Assembly (NCBI RefSeq): GCF_004519335.1
Contig: NZ_SOZD01000002.1
Location: 248,001 to 312,000 of the forward strand
Direction of reading: 5' to 3'
Source: Jiella endophytica
GTDB taxonomy: Bacteria > Pseudomonadota > Alphaproteobacteria > Rhizobiales > Rhizobiaceae
Length of the DNA: 64,000 nt
The notes under the pieces: model-generated
Databases searched by the model: none
Told to the model about the DNA's origin: nothing
What the model saw: only the letters and a program-made list of their open reading frames with translations
Part shown: in pieces, positions 4,403 to 9,736 of the stretch
Position numbering within the stretch: the first letter of the stretch is position 1
Layout: the number at the start of each line of letters is the position of its first letter
Program-made: the position numbers and the translations under genes

Positions 4403-5665
4403 ATGATGAACGACCTCGTTGCCCGCCTGACCCACCGCAAGAAGGGCTACACGCTCGAAGCGCCCTTCTACACGGATCCGGAGATCTTCGCCGCCGACAT
4501 GGAGGTGATCTTCGGCCGCCACTGGCTGTTCGTCGGCGTCGAGCCGGACGTCCCGGAGCCGGGCGACGTCATGGTCGTCGACATCGGCAAGAACTCGGTC
4601 GCCGTGCTGCGCGACGACGACGGCGAGATCCGCGCCTTCCACAATGTCTGCCGCCACCGCGGCGCCCGCCTCGTTCACGAGGAAAAGTCGACCGTCGGCA
4701 ATCTCGTCTGCCGCTATCACTCCTGGGTCTACGACACGACCGGCAAGCTCATCCATGCCGAGCACATGGGCGAGGATTTCGACAAGTCCTGCCACGGGCT
4801 GAAGCCGGTGCATGTGCGCTCGCTGGAGGGTCTGCTCTTCATCTGTCTCGCCGAAAACCCGCCGCAGGATTTCGACGAGCTGGAGCGGGTGATGGCCCCC
4901 TATCTCAAGCCCCACAATCTGCGCGAGACCAAAGTCGCCTACCAGCACGATCTGATCGAGCCGGGCAACTGGAAGCTGACGATGGAGAACAACCGCGAGT
5001 GCTATCACTGCGGGGCGAACCATCCCGAGCTGACCGTGCCGCTGTTTGCCTACGGCTTTGGCTTCGCGCCGGAGGAACTCGACGAGACCGAGCGGGAACA
5101 TGCCGCGCAATATGCCTGCATGCTCAACGACAACCACCGGGACTGGGAGGCCGCGGGCCTGCCCTCGCGCGAGGTCGACCGGCTCGACGACATGGTGACG
5201 GGCTTCCGCACCGAGCGCCTGCCGTTGTCGGGCGATGGCGAGAGCCACACCATCGATACCAAGCGCGCCTGCAACAAGCTGATGGGCAACCTCACCAACG
5301 CCAAGGCGGGCGGCCTGCACTTCTGGACCCAGCCCAATTCCTGGCATCATTTCATGGGCGACCATGCGGTGGTCTTCTCGGTGCTGCCGCTCGGCCCCGA
5401 CCGCTCGCTGCTGCGCACCAAGTGGCTGGTCCACAAGGACGCCGTCGAGGGCGTCGACTACGATCTCGACAATCTGATCGGCGTCTGGATGGCCACCAAC
5501 CAGCAGGATTCCGATCTCGTCGGCTACTGCCAGAGCGGCGTCGAGATGGACGGCTACACGCCGGGCCCCTACTCGCCGCACACCGAGATGCTCGTCGAGA
5601 AATTCATCAACTGGTATGTCGGCCGGATGCTATCGCATCTGGCCGAGACACGCGCCGTCGCCTGA
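4403..5665 (+). CDS. gbcA: Glycine betaine demethylase, Rieske oxygenase subunit
   Basis: 420 residues with the two-domain layout of an aromatic-ring-hydroxylase-type alpha subunit. The Rieske [2Fe-2S] motif CRHRG...CRYHSW lies at residues about 90-112 and the catalytic mononuclear-iron region (NRECYHCGANHPE) at about 195-208. GbcA oxidatively removes one methyl from glycine betaine to give dimethylglycine and formaldehyde, using electrons from GbcB. Stachydrine demethylases (Stc2) are close relatives, so the substrate is inferred from the adjacent dgc and sox genes. Two ATGs are adjacent (4403 and 4406). The first is used, and neither has a strong ribosome site. Confidence 0.9.
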   Translation: MMNDLVARLTHRKKGYTLEAPFYTDPEIFAADMEVIFGRHWLFVGVEPDVPEPGDVMVVDIGKNSVAVLRDDDGEIRAFHNVCRHRGARLVHEEKSTVGNLVCRYHSWVYDTTGKLIHAEHMGEDFDKSCHGLKPVHVRSLEGLLFICLAENPPQDFDELERVMAPYLKPHNLRETKVAYQHDLIEPGNWKLTMENNRECYHCGANHPELTVPLFAYGFGFAPEELDETEREHAAQYACMLNDNHRDWEAAGLPSREVDRLDDMVTGFRTERLPLSGDGESHTIDTKRACNKLMGNLTNAKAGGLHFWTQPNSWHHFMGDHAVVFSVLPLGPDRSLLRTKWLVHKDAVEGVDYDLDNLIGVWMATNQQDSDLVGYCQSGVEMDGYTPGPYSPHTEMLVEKFINWYVGRMLSHLAETRAVA

Positions 5666-5678
5666 AGGGCCCGCCGCC

Positions 5679-6788
5679 ATGGATGCACCCGTGCAGAACC
5701 CCGCCGGGCCGGTTCCCACCGGCTATTTCCGATGGGAGCCGGAGGAAGACGACGTCCTGATCTGCCGCGCCGTGCGCGAAGAGACCCATGACGTCAAGAC
5801 CTTCGTCTTCGCGCCGCGGCACAAGCGCCAGTTCGAGTTCGTCTCCGGCCAGTTCCTGACCTTCGAATTCGACATCGACGGCGAGACGATCCACCGCTGC
5901 TACACCATCTCCTCGCCGCCGACCCGGCCGGACACGGTGTCAATCACGGTCAAGCGCGTGCCCGGCGGCCCGGTCTCGAACTGGCTGCACGACCAGTTCC
6001 AGCCGGGCATGATGCTGAAGGCGACGGTGCCGATGGGAGTCTTCTCCTGGGCCGGCATGCAGGCGACGAAATATCTCTTCATCTCCGGCGGCTCGGGCAT
6101 CACGCCGATGATGTCGATGACCCGGGCTTCCTTCGACCTCGCGCTGATCTCCGATATCGCCTTCGTCCACGCCGCACGCTCGCCGGCCGACATCGTCTTC
6201 CACGACGAGCTCGACTATATGAGCCGGCGCAACCGCTCGATCCGGCCGACCTTCATCGTCGAGGACGACGCGCCGCGCGAGAGCTGGGGCGGCTATCGCG
6301 GCCGCTTTGACGGTGCCAAGCTGGCGATGATCTGCCCGGACTTCCGGGAGCGCGTGGTCTTCGTCTGCGGCCCTGCGCCCTTCATGAAGGCGGTGAAGAC
6401 GACGCTCGAGGCAGCCGGCTTCGACATGGGCCGCTACCATCAGGAAAGCTTCAACTTCGACGACTTCACCGAGGAGGCGCAGGAACAGATCTCGGAGGCG
6501 ACGGAGGAGATCGATTCCGGCGTGAAGGTGTTCCAGCTGGAATTCACCAAGACCGGCCGGACCATCGAATGCCCGGAAGGGCTGACGGTACTGGAGGCGG
6601 CCCGCCGCGCCGGCATGCGCCTGCCCTCCTCCTGTTCGAAGGGCCTCTGCGGCACCTGCAAGTCGAGGCTGACCTCCGGCTCCGTCGACATGAAGCATGG
6701 CGGCGGCATCCGCCAGCGCGAGATCGACGCCGGCATGGCGCTGCTCTGCTGCTCGCGGCCGAAGACGGATCTGGTGATCGAGCGGTGA
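5679..6788 (+). CDS. gbcB: Glycine betaine demethylase reductase subunit
   Basis: 369 residues: a flavodoxin-reductase-like FAD domain (RCYTISSPPTRPD at about residue 75), an NAD-binding domain (FISGGSGITPMMSM, then VVFVCGPAPFMKAVK) and a C-terminal plant-type ferredoxin (SCSKGLCGTCKSR, with a final CC pair near the end). It transfers electrons from NAD(P)H to the Rieske centre of GbcA. The start at 5679 is preferred over the upstream in-frame ATG at 5616, which lies within gbcA. The gap to gbcA is 13 bases. A repeat element begins about 60 bases after its stop. Confidence 0.92.
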   Translation: MDAPVQNPAGPVPTGYFRWEPEEDDVLICRAVREETHDVKTFVFAPRHKRQFEFVSGQFLTFEFDIDGETIHRCYTISSPPTRPDTVSITVKRVPGGPVSNWLHDQFQPGMMLKATVPMGVFSWAGMQATKYLFISGGSGITPMMSMTRASFDLALISDIAFVHAARSPADIVFHDELDYMSRRNRSIRPTFIVEDDAPRESWGGYRGRFDGAKLAMICPDFRERVVFVCGPAPFMKAVKTTLEAAGFDMGRYHQESFNFDDFTEEAQEQISEATEEIDSGVKVFQLEFTKTGRTIECPEGLTVLEAARRAGMRLPSSCSKGLCGTCKSRLTSGSVDMKHGGGIRQREIDAGMALLCCSRPKTDLVIER

Positions 6789-6849
6789 GAGGGACGTTTT
6801 CATGATGGGCCTGGCTGGAACGGGAGGCGGGCGTCGTCGCTCCACGATC

Positions 6850-6997
6850 CCCTGGATTCTCGGGACGGGGCCCGAGAATGACGACCGGGATGGGAGGATC
6901 TGCGCCTTTTCCGGCACCGAGGCTGCCGCGGACGTTGCAGAATGGGCGCTGCCACCAAAGCTTCGTCATTCTCGGGCCCCGTCCCGAGAATCCAGGG
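6850..6997. repeat. MITE-like element, copy A, with perfect terminal inverted repeats
   Basis: A 148-bp unit whose first 35 bases (6850-6884) are the exact reverse complement of its last 35 (6963-6997). Each terminus is itself a near-palindrome, ATTCTCGGG-ACGGGG-CCCGAGAAT. The core contains CGCCTTTTCCGGCA. No open frame in it resembles a protein. It is homologous end-to-end to copy B at 7409-7559, in direct orientation. No clear target-site duplication is seen. This looks like a small non-autonomous repeat, and the termini would fold into very stable hairpins downstream of gbcB. Confidence 0.9.
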
Positions 6998-7056
6998 CGG
7001 CCTCACCGACCTGTCAACGCGAGCATCGCCATCGCTGGCCAAAGGCGTAAGACACC

Positions 7057-7440
7057 ATGGGCGGCTGGGTCTACATCATGGCATCGCAGCGCAACGGAAC
7101 GCTCTATGTCGGCGTGACTTCCGACCTGCATCGCCGCGTCTTGGAACACCGCGAAGGCGACGTGAAAGGCTTCACCGCCCGCTACGGCTGCAGGACACTC
7201 GTCTGGCATGAACGCCACGACGACATAGAGATCGCCATCCAGCGCGAGACGTCGATCAAGCGCTATCGGCGGGCGTGGAAACTGAGGCTGATCGAGGATC
7301 TGAACCCGCAATGGCTGGACTTGTTCGAGCGGTTTTCGGACGAGGACAACCCTTACAGGCCGTCGTTCGACGGAGCGCTCGACGATCTTCCGCCGGAGCC
7401 CGACGCTCCCCTGGATTCTCGGGACGGGGCCCGAGAATGA
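7057..7440 (+). CDS. GIY-YIG family endonuclease-like protein
   Basis: 127 residues. The VYIMASQRNGTLYVGVT segment (residues 5-21) is the GIY-YIG core in its VYI/YVG form. It is followed by DLHRRVLEH (catalytic Arg region), a basic AIQRETSIKRYRR stretch (metal-binding Glu) and the PQWLDLF close typical of the short UvrC-N/YhbQ-like family. Such proteins are predicted single-domain nucleases with no proven role in most alphaproteobacteria. It sits between two copies of an inverted-repeat element. The last ten codons and the TGA stop fall inside copy B, so the native C terminus was probably replaced when the repeat arrived. The core domain appears intact. Confidence 0.88.
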   Translation: MGGWVYIMASQRNGTLYVGVTSDLHRRVLEHREGDVKGFTARYGCRTLVWHERHDDIEIAIQRETSIKRYRRAWKLRLIEDLNPQWLDLFERFSDEDNPYRPSFDGALDDLPPEPDAPLDSRDGARE

Positions 7441-7559
7441 CGACCGGGATGGGAAGACGAGCGCCTTTTCCGGCAACGCCGAGACTGCCGCAGTTGCTTC
7501 AGGACGGGCGAAATCACCAACGCTTCGTCATTCTTGGGCTCCGTCCCGAGAATCCAGGG
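7409..7559. repeat. MITE-like element, copy B
   Basis: A 151-bp unit homologous to copy A and in the same orientation. The left terminus (7409-7443) is identical to that of copy A. The right terminus (7525-7559) differs from the perfect inverted repeat by two C-to-T changes, so copy B has diverged slightly. The core shares CGCCTTTTCCGGCA and scattered identity with copy A, with small indels. The left terminus provides the last codons and the stop of the GIY-YIG gene. Together copies A and B bracket that gene like the ends of a composite unit. Confidence 0.9.
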
Positions 7560-7681
7560 GCGGCCGCGCGCAATCGGTGCAACCGCGTCCCTTCGTGCAC
7601 GACGCGCCATCCGTCCATGCCGGCACCGAACGCCAAAGCCGCGAGCCATCTCACCGCCATCACCCACGAGAGCCACCACCC

Positions 7682-9736
7682 ATGATCGCCAATGCCGAAG
7701 CTCTCCTGAAGCCCCTCACCATCAAGGGCCTCACCATCCGCAACCGGGTGATGTCGACGAGCCATGCGCCGTCCTACGGCAAGGACGGCAAGCCGCAGCA
7801 GCGCTATCAGCTCTATCATGAGGAAAAGGCCAAGGGCGGCATCGGGCTGACGATGTTCGGCGGCTCGTCCTCGGTGTCGGTGGACAGTCCGGCCGCCCCG
7901 TGGAACCAGATCTCCGTCGCCGACGACAGCGTCGTGCCGTTCTTCACCGAATTCTCCGAGCGGATCCACAGGCACGGCGCAAAGCTGATGATCCAGCTGA
8001 CCCATATGGGCCGGCGGACGAAGTGGGACACCGAGCACTGGATCCCGGTCAAATCCGCCTCCCCGACCCGCGAGCCGGCATCCCGGGCGATCGCCAAGGA
8101 ACTGGAGCAGGAGGAGATCGACCGCATCGTCGCCGATTTCGCCGCGGCTGCGCGGCGTTGCAGGGAGGGCGGGCTCGACGGCTGCGAGATCTCCGCCGCC
8201 CACGGCCATCTCGTCGACCAGTTCTGGTCGCCGAACTCCAACCACCGCACCGACCAATATGGCGGCTCGCTGGAAAACCGCATGCGCTTCGGCATCGAGG
8301 TGCTCTCGGCGATGCGCGAGGCCGTCGGTGACGACTATATCATCGGCATGCGCATGTCGGGCGACGAGATGCTGAAGGGCGGGCTCAGCCACGAGGACTG
8401 CGTCTCGATCGCCGCCGAATACACCTCGCGCGGCCTCGTCGACTTCCTCAACATCATCGGCGGCCAGGCGCGCGACCACATTGCCCACGCGATCTCGCTG
8501 CCCAACATGTCCTTCCCCGTCGCGCCCTTCTTGTCCCTCCCCTCGGCGATCAAGCGCGAGGTGGACGTGCCGATCTTCCACGCCCAGCGGGTGACCGATC
8601 TCGCCACCGGCGCGCGGGCCGTCGCCGAAGGCCATGTCGACATGATCGCGATGACGCGGGCGCACATCGCCGATCCGCATCTCGTCAAGAAGCTCTCCGA
8701 AGGCCGCGCCGACGACATTCGCCAGTGTGTGGGCGCCGGCTACTGCATCGACCGCATCTATGTCGGCGGCGACGCGCTGTGCATCCAGAACGCTGCGACC
8801 GGCCGCGAGGCGACGATGCCCCACGTCATCGAAAAGGCGGCCGCGGCGAAGAAGGCCGTGGTGATCGGCGGCGGCGTCGGCGGGCTGGAGGCGGCCCGCG
8901 TGCTCGCCGAACGCGGCCATCAGGTGACGCTGTTCGAGAAGTCCGACCGTCTCGGCGGCCAGATCAATGTCGCTGCGAAGGCGACGTGGCGCGAGGCGCT
9001 GTCAGGGATCCCACGCTGGCTGGTCTCCCAGGTGCAGAAGCTCGGCGTCGACATCCGCCTCGGCACCGAGGCCGGGGAAGCCGAGATTGCGGCGCTTTCC
9101 CCTGACATCGTCATCGTCGCCACCGGCGGCCTTCCCTCCAGGGGCGAGGCGAAAGGCCACGAGCATGCGGTGACCACCTGGGATGTGCTGGAAGGCCGTT
9201 CGGAGCCTTCGGGAACGGTGCTCCTCTATGACGAGATTGGCGGACACAACGCCGCCTCGACCGCCGAGGTCCTCGCCAAGAAGGGCTGCCTCGTCGAGAT
9301 CGTCACCCACGACCGGATGATCGGCGAGGAGATCGGCCCGACCAACCAGCCGGTTCACCTGCGCGAACTCTACAAGCTCGGCGTGCTGATGACGCCGAAT
9401 TCCGAGCTGATCGAGATCTATCCGGAGGGCAACCGGATGATCGCCGCGATCCGCAACACCATGACCGACGCGGAAGAGGAGCGCGTCGTCGATTCGGTGG
9501 TGGTGGACTACGGCACGCTGCCGGTGGATGCGGTGCATTTCGCGCTGAAGGACGGGGCGAAGAACAAGGGGTTCACCGATCTTCAGGCGCTGATCGCCGG
9601 CGCGCCGCAACCGTTCGAGATCAACGGCGCCGCCTCGGACGGCGGCTACACTCTCTACCGCATCGGCGATGCCGTCGCCGGCCGCAACATCCACGCCGCC
9701 ATCTACGACGCACTCCGCCTCTGCAAGGATCTTTGA
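7682..9736 (+). CDS. dgcA: Dimethylglycine demethylase, OYE-like flavoprotein subunit
   Basis: 684 residues. Residues about 1-370 are an Old Yellow Enzyme-type FMN barrel (IRNRVMSTSHAPSYG, then SAAHGHLVDQFWSPNSNHRTDQYGGS). It is followed by a cysteine cluster (CVGAGYC...LC) and an FAD/NAD(P)-type domain from about 395 (VVIGGGVGGLEAARVLAERG). This is the trimethylamine-dehydrogenase/2,4-dienoyl-CoA-reductase layout. The cluster has CVGAGYC rather than CxxCxxxC, so one usual Fe-S cysteine is not in the standard place. DgcA demethylates dimethylglycine to sarcosine, passing electrons to DgcB and Etf. The ATG at 7682 is chosen because the upstream extension to 7577 has no family similarity. Confidence 0.88.
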   Translation: MIANAEALLKPLTIKGLTIRNRVMSTSHAPSYGKDGKPQQRYQLYHEEKAKGGIGLTMFGGSSSVSVDSPAAPWNQISVADDSVVPFFTEFSERIHRHGAKLMIQLTHMGRRTKWDTEHWIPVKSASPTREPASRAIAKELEQEEIDRIVADFAAAARRCREGGLDGCEISAAHGHLVDQFWSPNSNHRTDQYGGSLENRMRFGIEVLSAMREAVGDDYIIGMRMSGDEMLKGGLSHEDCVSIAAEYTSRGLVDFLNIIGGQARDHIAHAISLPNMSFPVAPFLSLPSAIKREVDVPIFHAQRVTDLATGARAVAEGHVDMIAMTRAHIADPHLVKKLSEGRADDIRQCVGAGYCIDRIYVGGDALCIQNAATGREATMPHVIEKAAAAKKAVVIGGGVGGLEAARVLAERGHQVTLFEKSDRLGGQINVAAKATWREALSGIPRWLVSQVQKLGVDIRLGTEAGEAEIAALSPDIVIVATGGLPSRGEAKGHEHAVTTWDVLEGRSEPSGTVLLYDEIGGHNAASTAEVLAKKGCLVEIVTHDRMIGEEIGPTNQPVHLRELYKLGVLMTPNSELIEIYPEGNRMIAAIRNTMTDAEEERVVDSVVVDYGTLPVDAVHFALKDGAKNKGFTDLQALIAGAPQPFEINGAASDGGYTLYRIGDAVAGRNIHAAIYDALRLCKDL

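Follow-up and report, generated by a model that had tools for sequence, protein, structure and literature searches.

In the RAYT/REPIN system one enzyme gene stands beside its cognate REPs, and inverted pairs of these REPs are the likely non-autonomous form. A second pairing of enzyme and repeat comes from work of Chenal et al. in 2025, in which GIY-YIG nucleases called Ssn reportedly cut their cognate repeats in single-stranded DNA and, in Neisseria (the Ssn/NTS pair), are said to modulate transformation. The CGTC REPs, a super-family with an unpaired CGTC tag, a stem of 8-9 bp starting with AT and a CCA tail, are apparently without a dedicated transposase according to the survey by Di Nocera et al. 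(2013), where their mobilisation by RAYTs or by other transposases was left open (PMC3733652). The survey records these repeats in every order of Alphaproteobacteria and in 5 phyla, places the dRS3 repeat of Neisseria in the class, gives a loop of 4-5 nt for families 1-4, and does not contain the term "GIY-YIG" (PMC3733652).

The locus considered here lies in a window of Jiella endophytica (by "window" we mean the whole 64-kb stretch of DNA that was analysed, G000:C21:248001-312000, from a genome of 5.25 Mb). As in the Ssn system described above, we find a stand-alone GIY-YIG gene and a cognate multi-copy repeat, the protein being small and having many homologues that go with different repeats; most likely the window gene codes for an Ssn-like nuclease, and the adjoining repeat is cognate to it. 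Given the Ssn work, a nuclease-repeat pairing is not new, and the statement of the original prediction that no established mechanism links such an enzyme to its flanking repeat now appears out of date. Set beside Ssn, what we see in addition is that several paralogues in one genome are each matched by a private REP family, and that a bounded unit of gene and inner REPs occurs at unrelated sites, together with deleted derivatives. In the titles and the beginnings of abstracts that were searched, we found no literature linking GIY-YIG genes to REPs, and none on such a bounded unit, on its deleted derivatives or on paralogues with private REP families.

The likeness to RAYT/REPIN consists in an enzyme gene adjoining its cognate REPs and in dispersed inverted REP pairs, but the enzyme here is a GIY-YIG protein and not an HUH tyrosine transposase, which places the locus outside that system as defined by its Y1/HUH enzyme. 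As for the CGTC REPs, the window repeats share with them the CGTC tag, the 9-bp stem from AT, the CCA tail, the arrangement in dimers and the occurrence mostly in Alphaproteobacteria, and belong to the super-family by tag, stem and tail; their loop of 6 nt, however, differs from that of families 1-4 in the survey (PMC3733652), and the repeats are therefore filed only under the super-family. A repeat class without an assigned mover would in this way gain a possible one, namely a GIY-YIG nuclease.

The nuclease gene and its repeats

Table 1. Features of the Jiella endophytica locus, in positions of the window
Feature	Position	Strand	Remarks
Ferredoxin reductase-type (GbcB-like) neighbour, upstream	5616..6788	+	Pfam FAD_binding_6, NAD_binding_1, Fer2; left flank mark at empty sites
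Outer upstream REP	6850..6884	+	Partner of 6963-6997 in a tags-in dimer
Inner upstream CGTC-tagged REP	6963..6997	-	Tag away from gene; same type in clade-B relatives
Hypothetical core unit, tag-REP-gene-REP-tag	6963..7443	+	Analogous to 365-386 bp units found in other Alphaproteobacteria
Stand-alone GIY-YIG nuclease gene, 127 aa	7057..7440	+	PF01541, E 1.5e-13
Inner downstream CGTC-tagged REP	7409..7443	+	Tag away from gene; covers the gene's 3' end with its stop codon
Outer downstream REP	7525..7559	-	Two mismatches
Oxidored_FMN/Pyr_redox_2 (DgcA-like) neighbour, downstream	7682..9736	+	Pfam; right flank mark at empty sites

A GIY-YIG nuclease gene had been predicted between two repeat elements, and this is indeed what is found (Table 1). 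In an alignment of 23 sequences, Y6, Y17, R27, H31, E64 and N83, which we take to be the catalytic residues of GIY-YIG enzymes, are invariant. The AlphaFold2 model of the protein (mean pLDDT 75, with a C-terminal tail of low confidence) has its best Foldseek match in the UPF0213 structure 1zg2 (E 1.4e-4), followed by Slx1-Slx4, and the UPF0213 chains 1zg2 and 1ywl are also the only solved chains that the nuclease sequence matches at E up to 0.1, so that the likeness to UPF0213 consists of both a sequence match and the best fold match. The protein thus belongs to the GIY-YIG superfamily by a PF01541 match above the cut-off, by the motif tyrosines, arginine and glutamate (Y6, Y17, R27, E64) and by its fold, in line with the tyrosine, Arg and Glu criteria given in PMC1564403. 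The betaine operon named in the original prediction as the setting of the gene agrees with what lies around it: the neighbours in Table 1, together with the sarcosine-oxidase-type and Rieske-type genes that are also close to the nuclease gene, fit a putative betaine/dimethylglycine operon.

The upstream repeat had been described as a 148-bp element (6850-6997) with exact 35-bp terminal inverted repeats, and its two arms, of 35 nt each, are 100% complementary. The second copy (7409-7559) has the predicted place and direct orientation (the two inverted-repeat elements are direct repeats of each other, with ~81% identity), but not the exact 35-bp match, its arms 7408-7443 and 7525-7560 (36 nt) being 94% complementary. 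When up to 3 mismatches are tolerated, the window contains 4 matches to the 29-nt terminus, vs 0 in 100 shuffles. The termini are palindromes, as proposed: every arm folds into a 9-bp stem with a 6-nt loop, in the layout TCGTC-ATTCTCGGG-loop-CCCGAGAAT-CCAGGG (one arm has two changes in the stem), with the unpaired CGTC tag on one side of the hairpin and the CCAGGG tail on the other; nearly all shuffles fold less well than three of the arms, and the arm 7525-7559 stands out only weakly (z -1.25). A search of 6500-7800 with Rfam at gathering score gave no match to known RNA families. The final codons of the nuclease gene (LDSRDGARE-stop) lie inside the arm 7409-7443, and this overlap between the 3' end of the gene and the downstream REP recurs in several clade-B relatives.

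Association and cognate pairing across genomes

PF01541 was listed at 99 places in 41 genomes, and the association tests used 58 small places (open frame <350 aa) and 38 long-frame places as uvrC-type controls, leaving out the weak small place G032:C44 and the long-frame places G027:C3 and G037:C271. Tagged hairpins reach 1.50/kb (85 hairpins) up to 500 bp from the small GIY-YIG genes, vs 0.02-0.09/kb at 0.5-9 kb and 0.05/kb up to 500 bp from uvrC-type genes. When the tag is disregarded, recurrent hairpins are present within 800 bp at 41 of the 58 small loci vs 3 of the 38 uvrC-type loci and 24 of 282 mock positions, and an exact word of at least 14 nt is common to both flanks at 39/58 vs 1/38. 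Counted per genome, at least one such locus occurs in 21 of the 29 genomes holding small loci. The 17/58 small loci where recurrent hairpins are absent include distant GIY-YIG types and an RCADGSYYTG group, and some carry another palindrome type. Under a looser hairpin rule, which has a high background, hairpins stand on both sides within 600 bp in 29 of 40 named relatives of the window protein, and these relatives give only 2.64/kb near the gene (600 bp) vs 1.02/kb far from it. The original prediction had expected an association between GIY-YIG genes and the repeat across genomes, and as a statistical and cognate association the link between these genes and flanking REP-like repeats is strongly supported. 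REPs are, of course, common in these genomes, and one could imagine that they insert widely and come to lie near small GIY-YIG genes by accident or at a hotspot; we find this hardly credible, for it is already contradicted by the enrichment over uvrC-type genes and mock positions and by the covariation of gene and repeat.

Indeed, the repeat sequence tracks the protein clade. Protein and repeat distances correlate with r 0.51 over 75 loci and 0.47 over 39 non-redundant loci (<70% identity), and 0 of 5000 permutations were as high as observed. Within the genus, the nearest repeat distance averages 0.34 between same-genome paralogues (22 pairs) vs 0.22 between cross-genome orthologues (46 pairs), and the fact that the repeats of paralogues are less alike than those of orthologues argues against mere host background. 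In the J. endophytica genome, where PF01541 is found at 5 places (four of them small genes and the fifth an open frame of 885 aa, presumed to be uvrC), all four small GIY-YIG genes are near inverted palindromes, of four different families, one of the genes (L001/L095) having tagged REPs on one side only. Such paired paralogues make up a set of naturally matched nuclease-hairpin specificities, and if every REP family has a GIY-YIG nuclease cognate to it, the question of the missing transposase becomes directly testable.

The parallel with RAYTs drawn in the original prediction therefore holds for association and cognate pairing, in a genome with no match to the Y1 (RAYT-type) transposase family PF01797; that the enzyme acts on the repeats is what we infer. 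RAYT was tried as the mover and set aside, PF01797 being unmatched in the J. endophytica genome and matched in 7 of the 41 genomes only. Could a RAYT-type tyrosine transposase, or another transposase, nevertheless move the repeats in trans, with the GIY-YIG gene as a passenger? The 2013 survey (PMC3733652) left this mobilisation of CGTC REPs open, and two genomes of the genus with type-B repeats, G005 and G007, are among the seven with PF01797 matches; however, PF01797, the one family searched, is absent in G000, G002, G003, G004, G006 and G008, all of which have type-B repeats, and we regard the passenger hypothesis as very unlikely.

A second group of small GIY-YIG genes (L109, L108, L082-L084 and L075, with the RCADGSYYTG motif or nearly so) has a different flanking palindrome, of the CCTCATCCTGAGG...TCGAAGG type, perhaps a parallel pairing. 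Elsewhere, an exact 321-bp direct duplication lies on either side of the GIY-YIG gene of L116 (G020), and at L104 (G014) the nuclease gene is duplicated head-to-tail, with ~90% identity and a REP-like palindrome between the copies.

A bounded unit and its deleted copies

Tagged hairpins flank the gene on either side at 60 loci (a set that includes three duplicate loci and some possibly chance hairpins); the nearest tags both point outward in 37 of these and do not in 23, the orientation varying between clades. At 12 loci with the ATCCCAGC repeat in other Alphaproteobacteria, mostly Erythrobacteraceae and other Sphingomonadales, the units measure 365-386 bp (about 370 bp). Homology stops no more than 5 bp from both tags in 53 of the 65 non-syntenic pairs of these loci, and runs >15 bp past a tag in 4; exact REPs at either end were the criterion by which the 12 loci were picked, and this choice accounts in part for the conservation as far as the tag, but not for the abrupt outer end. 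In a wider comparison (25 loci, 117 pairs), for which tags were placed more crudely and syntenic pairs were kept, the left end of homology is no more than 6 bp from the tag in 57 pairs and the right end in 61, most other ends falling inside the unit. Homology of flanking proteins within ~2.8 kb is absent in 225 of 231 pairs of 22 loci, and among the 12 unit loci it is confined to L180-L191 (syntenic) and, weakly, L169-L176. Two copies with different flanks even stand on one contig of Erythrobacteraceae bacterium E2-1; they are 95% identical from the left tag, and on the right side identity continues 50 bp beyond the tag.

Because homology between unrelated sites stops at the tags, the tag-REP-gene-REP-tag segment behaves as a mobile unit, and because the flanking genes are unrelated, the unit has changed place. 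This pattern of sequence conservation suggests that the gene and its two end repeats form a tiny jumping element, although the sharp ends of homology could come in part from selection on REPs as target sites. The original prediction had instead regarded the two outer dimers as MITE-like elements; the likely unit is the gene with the two inner repeats. For the window, the boundaries of the hypothetical core unit (Table 1) are taken from other Alphaproteobacteria and not from the genus Jiella itself.

Among 96 loci scanned, two showed internally deleted copies. In a record of Sinorhizobium meliloti Ak57 a complete unit is accompanied by a copy with both REPs and, of the gene, only ~80 nt from its 3' end, and a copy in G039 has short 5' and 3' pieces of the gene between REPs that read GAGC instead of GACG. 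Both copies look like the remnants that internal deletion in an autonomous element would be expected to leave. (The record CP090106.1, L246, is labelled plasmid pSymB; it measures 3.7 Mb, with gltA and lpxB present, and we would suggest that it is the chromosome rather than pSymB.)

We think it rather probable that the Ssn-type nuclease targets its own REPs and that unit and gene-less dimers are copied by its cutting. The window gene would then encode a small Ssn-type GIY-YIG enzyme directed at the hairpin of the CGTC-tagged REP family that belongs to it, and the gene with the inner REP pair, tags outward, would be the minimal mobile unit, of ~0.4 kb. The nuclease would cut the REP hairpins or the adjacent tag when the DNA is single-stranded (on the lagging strand or in incoming DNA), and this cutting would lead to the copying of the unit and of its gene-less derivatives, the tags-out REP dimers, to new sites. 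The substrate specificity, the cutting and the mobilising role of the nuclease are, in this scheme, what we infer. If the nuclease does move the unit, then the unit would rank as a very small autonomous mobile element, and a fold known from homing, repair and restriction would have a role in transposition.

A more modest role would be that of an Ssn-like regulator, which cuts the repeats in incoming single-stranded DNA and so tunes transformation or recombination, the repeats spreading otherwise and the gene being kept for the linkage. This is the function reported for the Neisseria Ssn/NTS pair, and the active site of the window protein is conserved. The Neisseria dRS3 repeat, moreover, falls in the same CGTC REP class (PMC3733652). 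Regulation alone, however, would explain neither a sharply bounded unit at unrelated sites nor the internally deleted copies, and we hold it to be rather unlikely. More tentatively than the copying by nuclease cutting favoured above, but as a serious possibility, we put forward that the unit is an autonomous transposable element with a GIY-YIG transposase of ~100 residues, and that the CGTC REP dimers derive from it by internal deletion and are mobilised in trans; if this were true, the missing mobilising enzyme would be supplied for a REP class recorded from 5 phyla (PMC3733652).

Empty sites and the repeat family in the genus

The window site was compared in 8 related genomes: the gene is present in G002, G004 and G007 (3/8), one dimer without the gene in G006, neither gene nor REP in G001, G005 and G008, and in G003 (L202) an unrelated insert of ~0.8 kb lies between the gbcB-like and dgcA-like genes. 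In J. pelagia (L161) the gene is accompanied by the downstream dimer only, the whole upstream dimer being absent. As regards the dispersed dimers, L020 is shared by G007 and G008 and missing from the other 6 of the 8, and the flank of L023 matches many places. At a junction of SDR-like and guaB-like genes (named by eye), the unit is found in Aurantiacibacter sediminis and A. odishensis, and none in A. luteus. The comparison of sites with and without the element, as proposed in the original prediction, has thus yielded empty sites and a gene-less dimer but no clean target duplication, none being definable at the sites compared, which are too diverged; by eye, the two sides of the L020 site resemble a rough ~20-nt duplication.

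These sites bear on a further scenario, homing, in which the nuclease cuts existing REP pairs and the gene is copied in by recombination between REPs that another agent had moved. Homing enzymes do occur in the GIY-YIG class (PMC1564403), homology ending at the REPs would be expected, and the orthologous site in G006 has a dimer but no gene. We nevertheless consider homing unlikely, because orthologous sites lack both gene and REP in G001, G005 and G008, and likewise at the SDR-guaB site of A. luteus, and because REPs as short as these would seem poor for recombination.

Allowing up to 2 mismatches, we count 243 occurrences of a 14-nt piece of the terminus in the J. endophytica genome vs 21 of the reversed pattern; a stricter 28-nt pattern occurs there 38 times and is found in 8 of the 41 genomes, all of one genus. 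Close repeat pairs in this genome are tags-out in 12 cases (9 of them 101-102 nt from start to start) and tags-in in 4, two of which flank the nuclease gene, the other two falling between adjacent members of a tandem array; in G002 there are 10 tags-out and 2 tags-in pairs, both tags-in pairs at the gene, and G007 has at least one tags-in pair away from the gene (C5:137 and 247). From the orientation counts in the first two genomes it follows that the dispersed form is mainly tags-out, and the 148-bp tags-in dimer described in the original prediction is not the form in which the repeat is usually dispersed. By eye, the inner sequences of the tags-out dimers of Jiella look too different for us to claim that these dimers derive from the gene-bearing unit.

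Type-B repeats are present without a clade-B gene in G003 (15), G005 (3), G006 (51) and G008 (16), and in G011, with 71 type-C repeats, no stand-alone GIY-YIG gene was detected, so that resident repeats need no resident cognate gene now, with the reservation that small genes are often near contig ends and some may have been missed. These five genomes tell against our favoured reading, as do the 17/58 small loci lacking recurrent hairpins, the 23 two-sided loci with other tag orientations, the one-sided REPs of L001/L095 and the tags-in pair of G007 that lies apart from the gene. Repeat abundance was accordingly discarded as an indicator strictly tied to the cognate gene, for it fails in these five genomes. 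For G006, the gene-less dimer at the orthologous site suggests gene loss, which is one explanation for the repeat-holding genomes, G011 not being covered by it. Among the matches listed for G011, most type-C REPs are identical to the pattern. Finally, in the J. endophytica genome itself, copies of several REP families are clustered at C26:17000-19400, and at L007/L033 (C2:67194-68005) type-B tags-out REP dimers stand in tandem with a period of ~260 bp.
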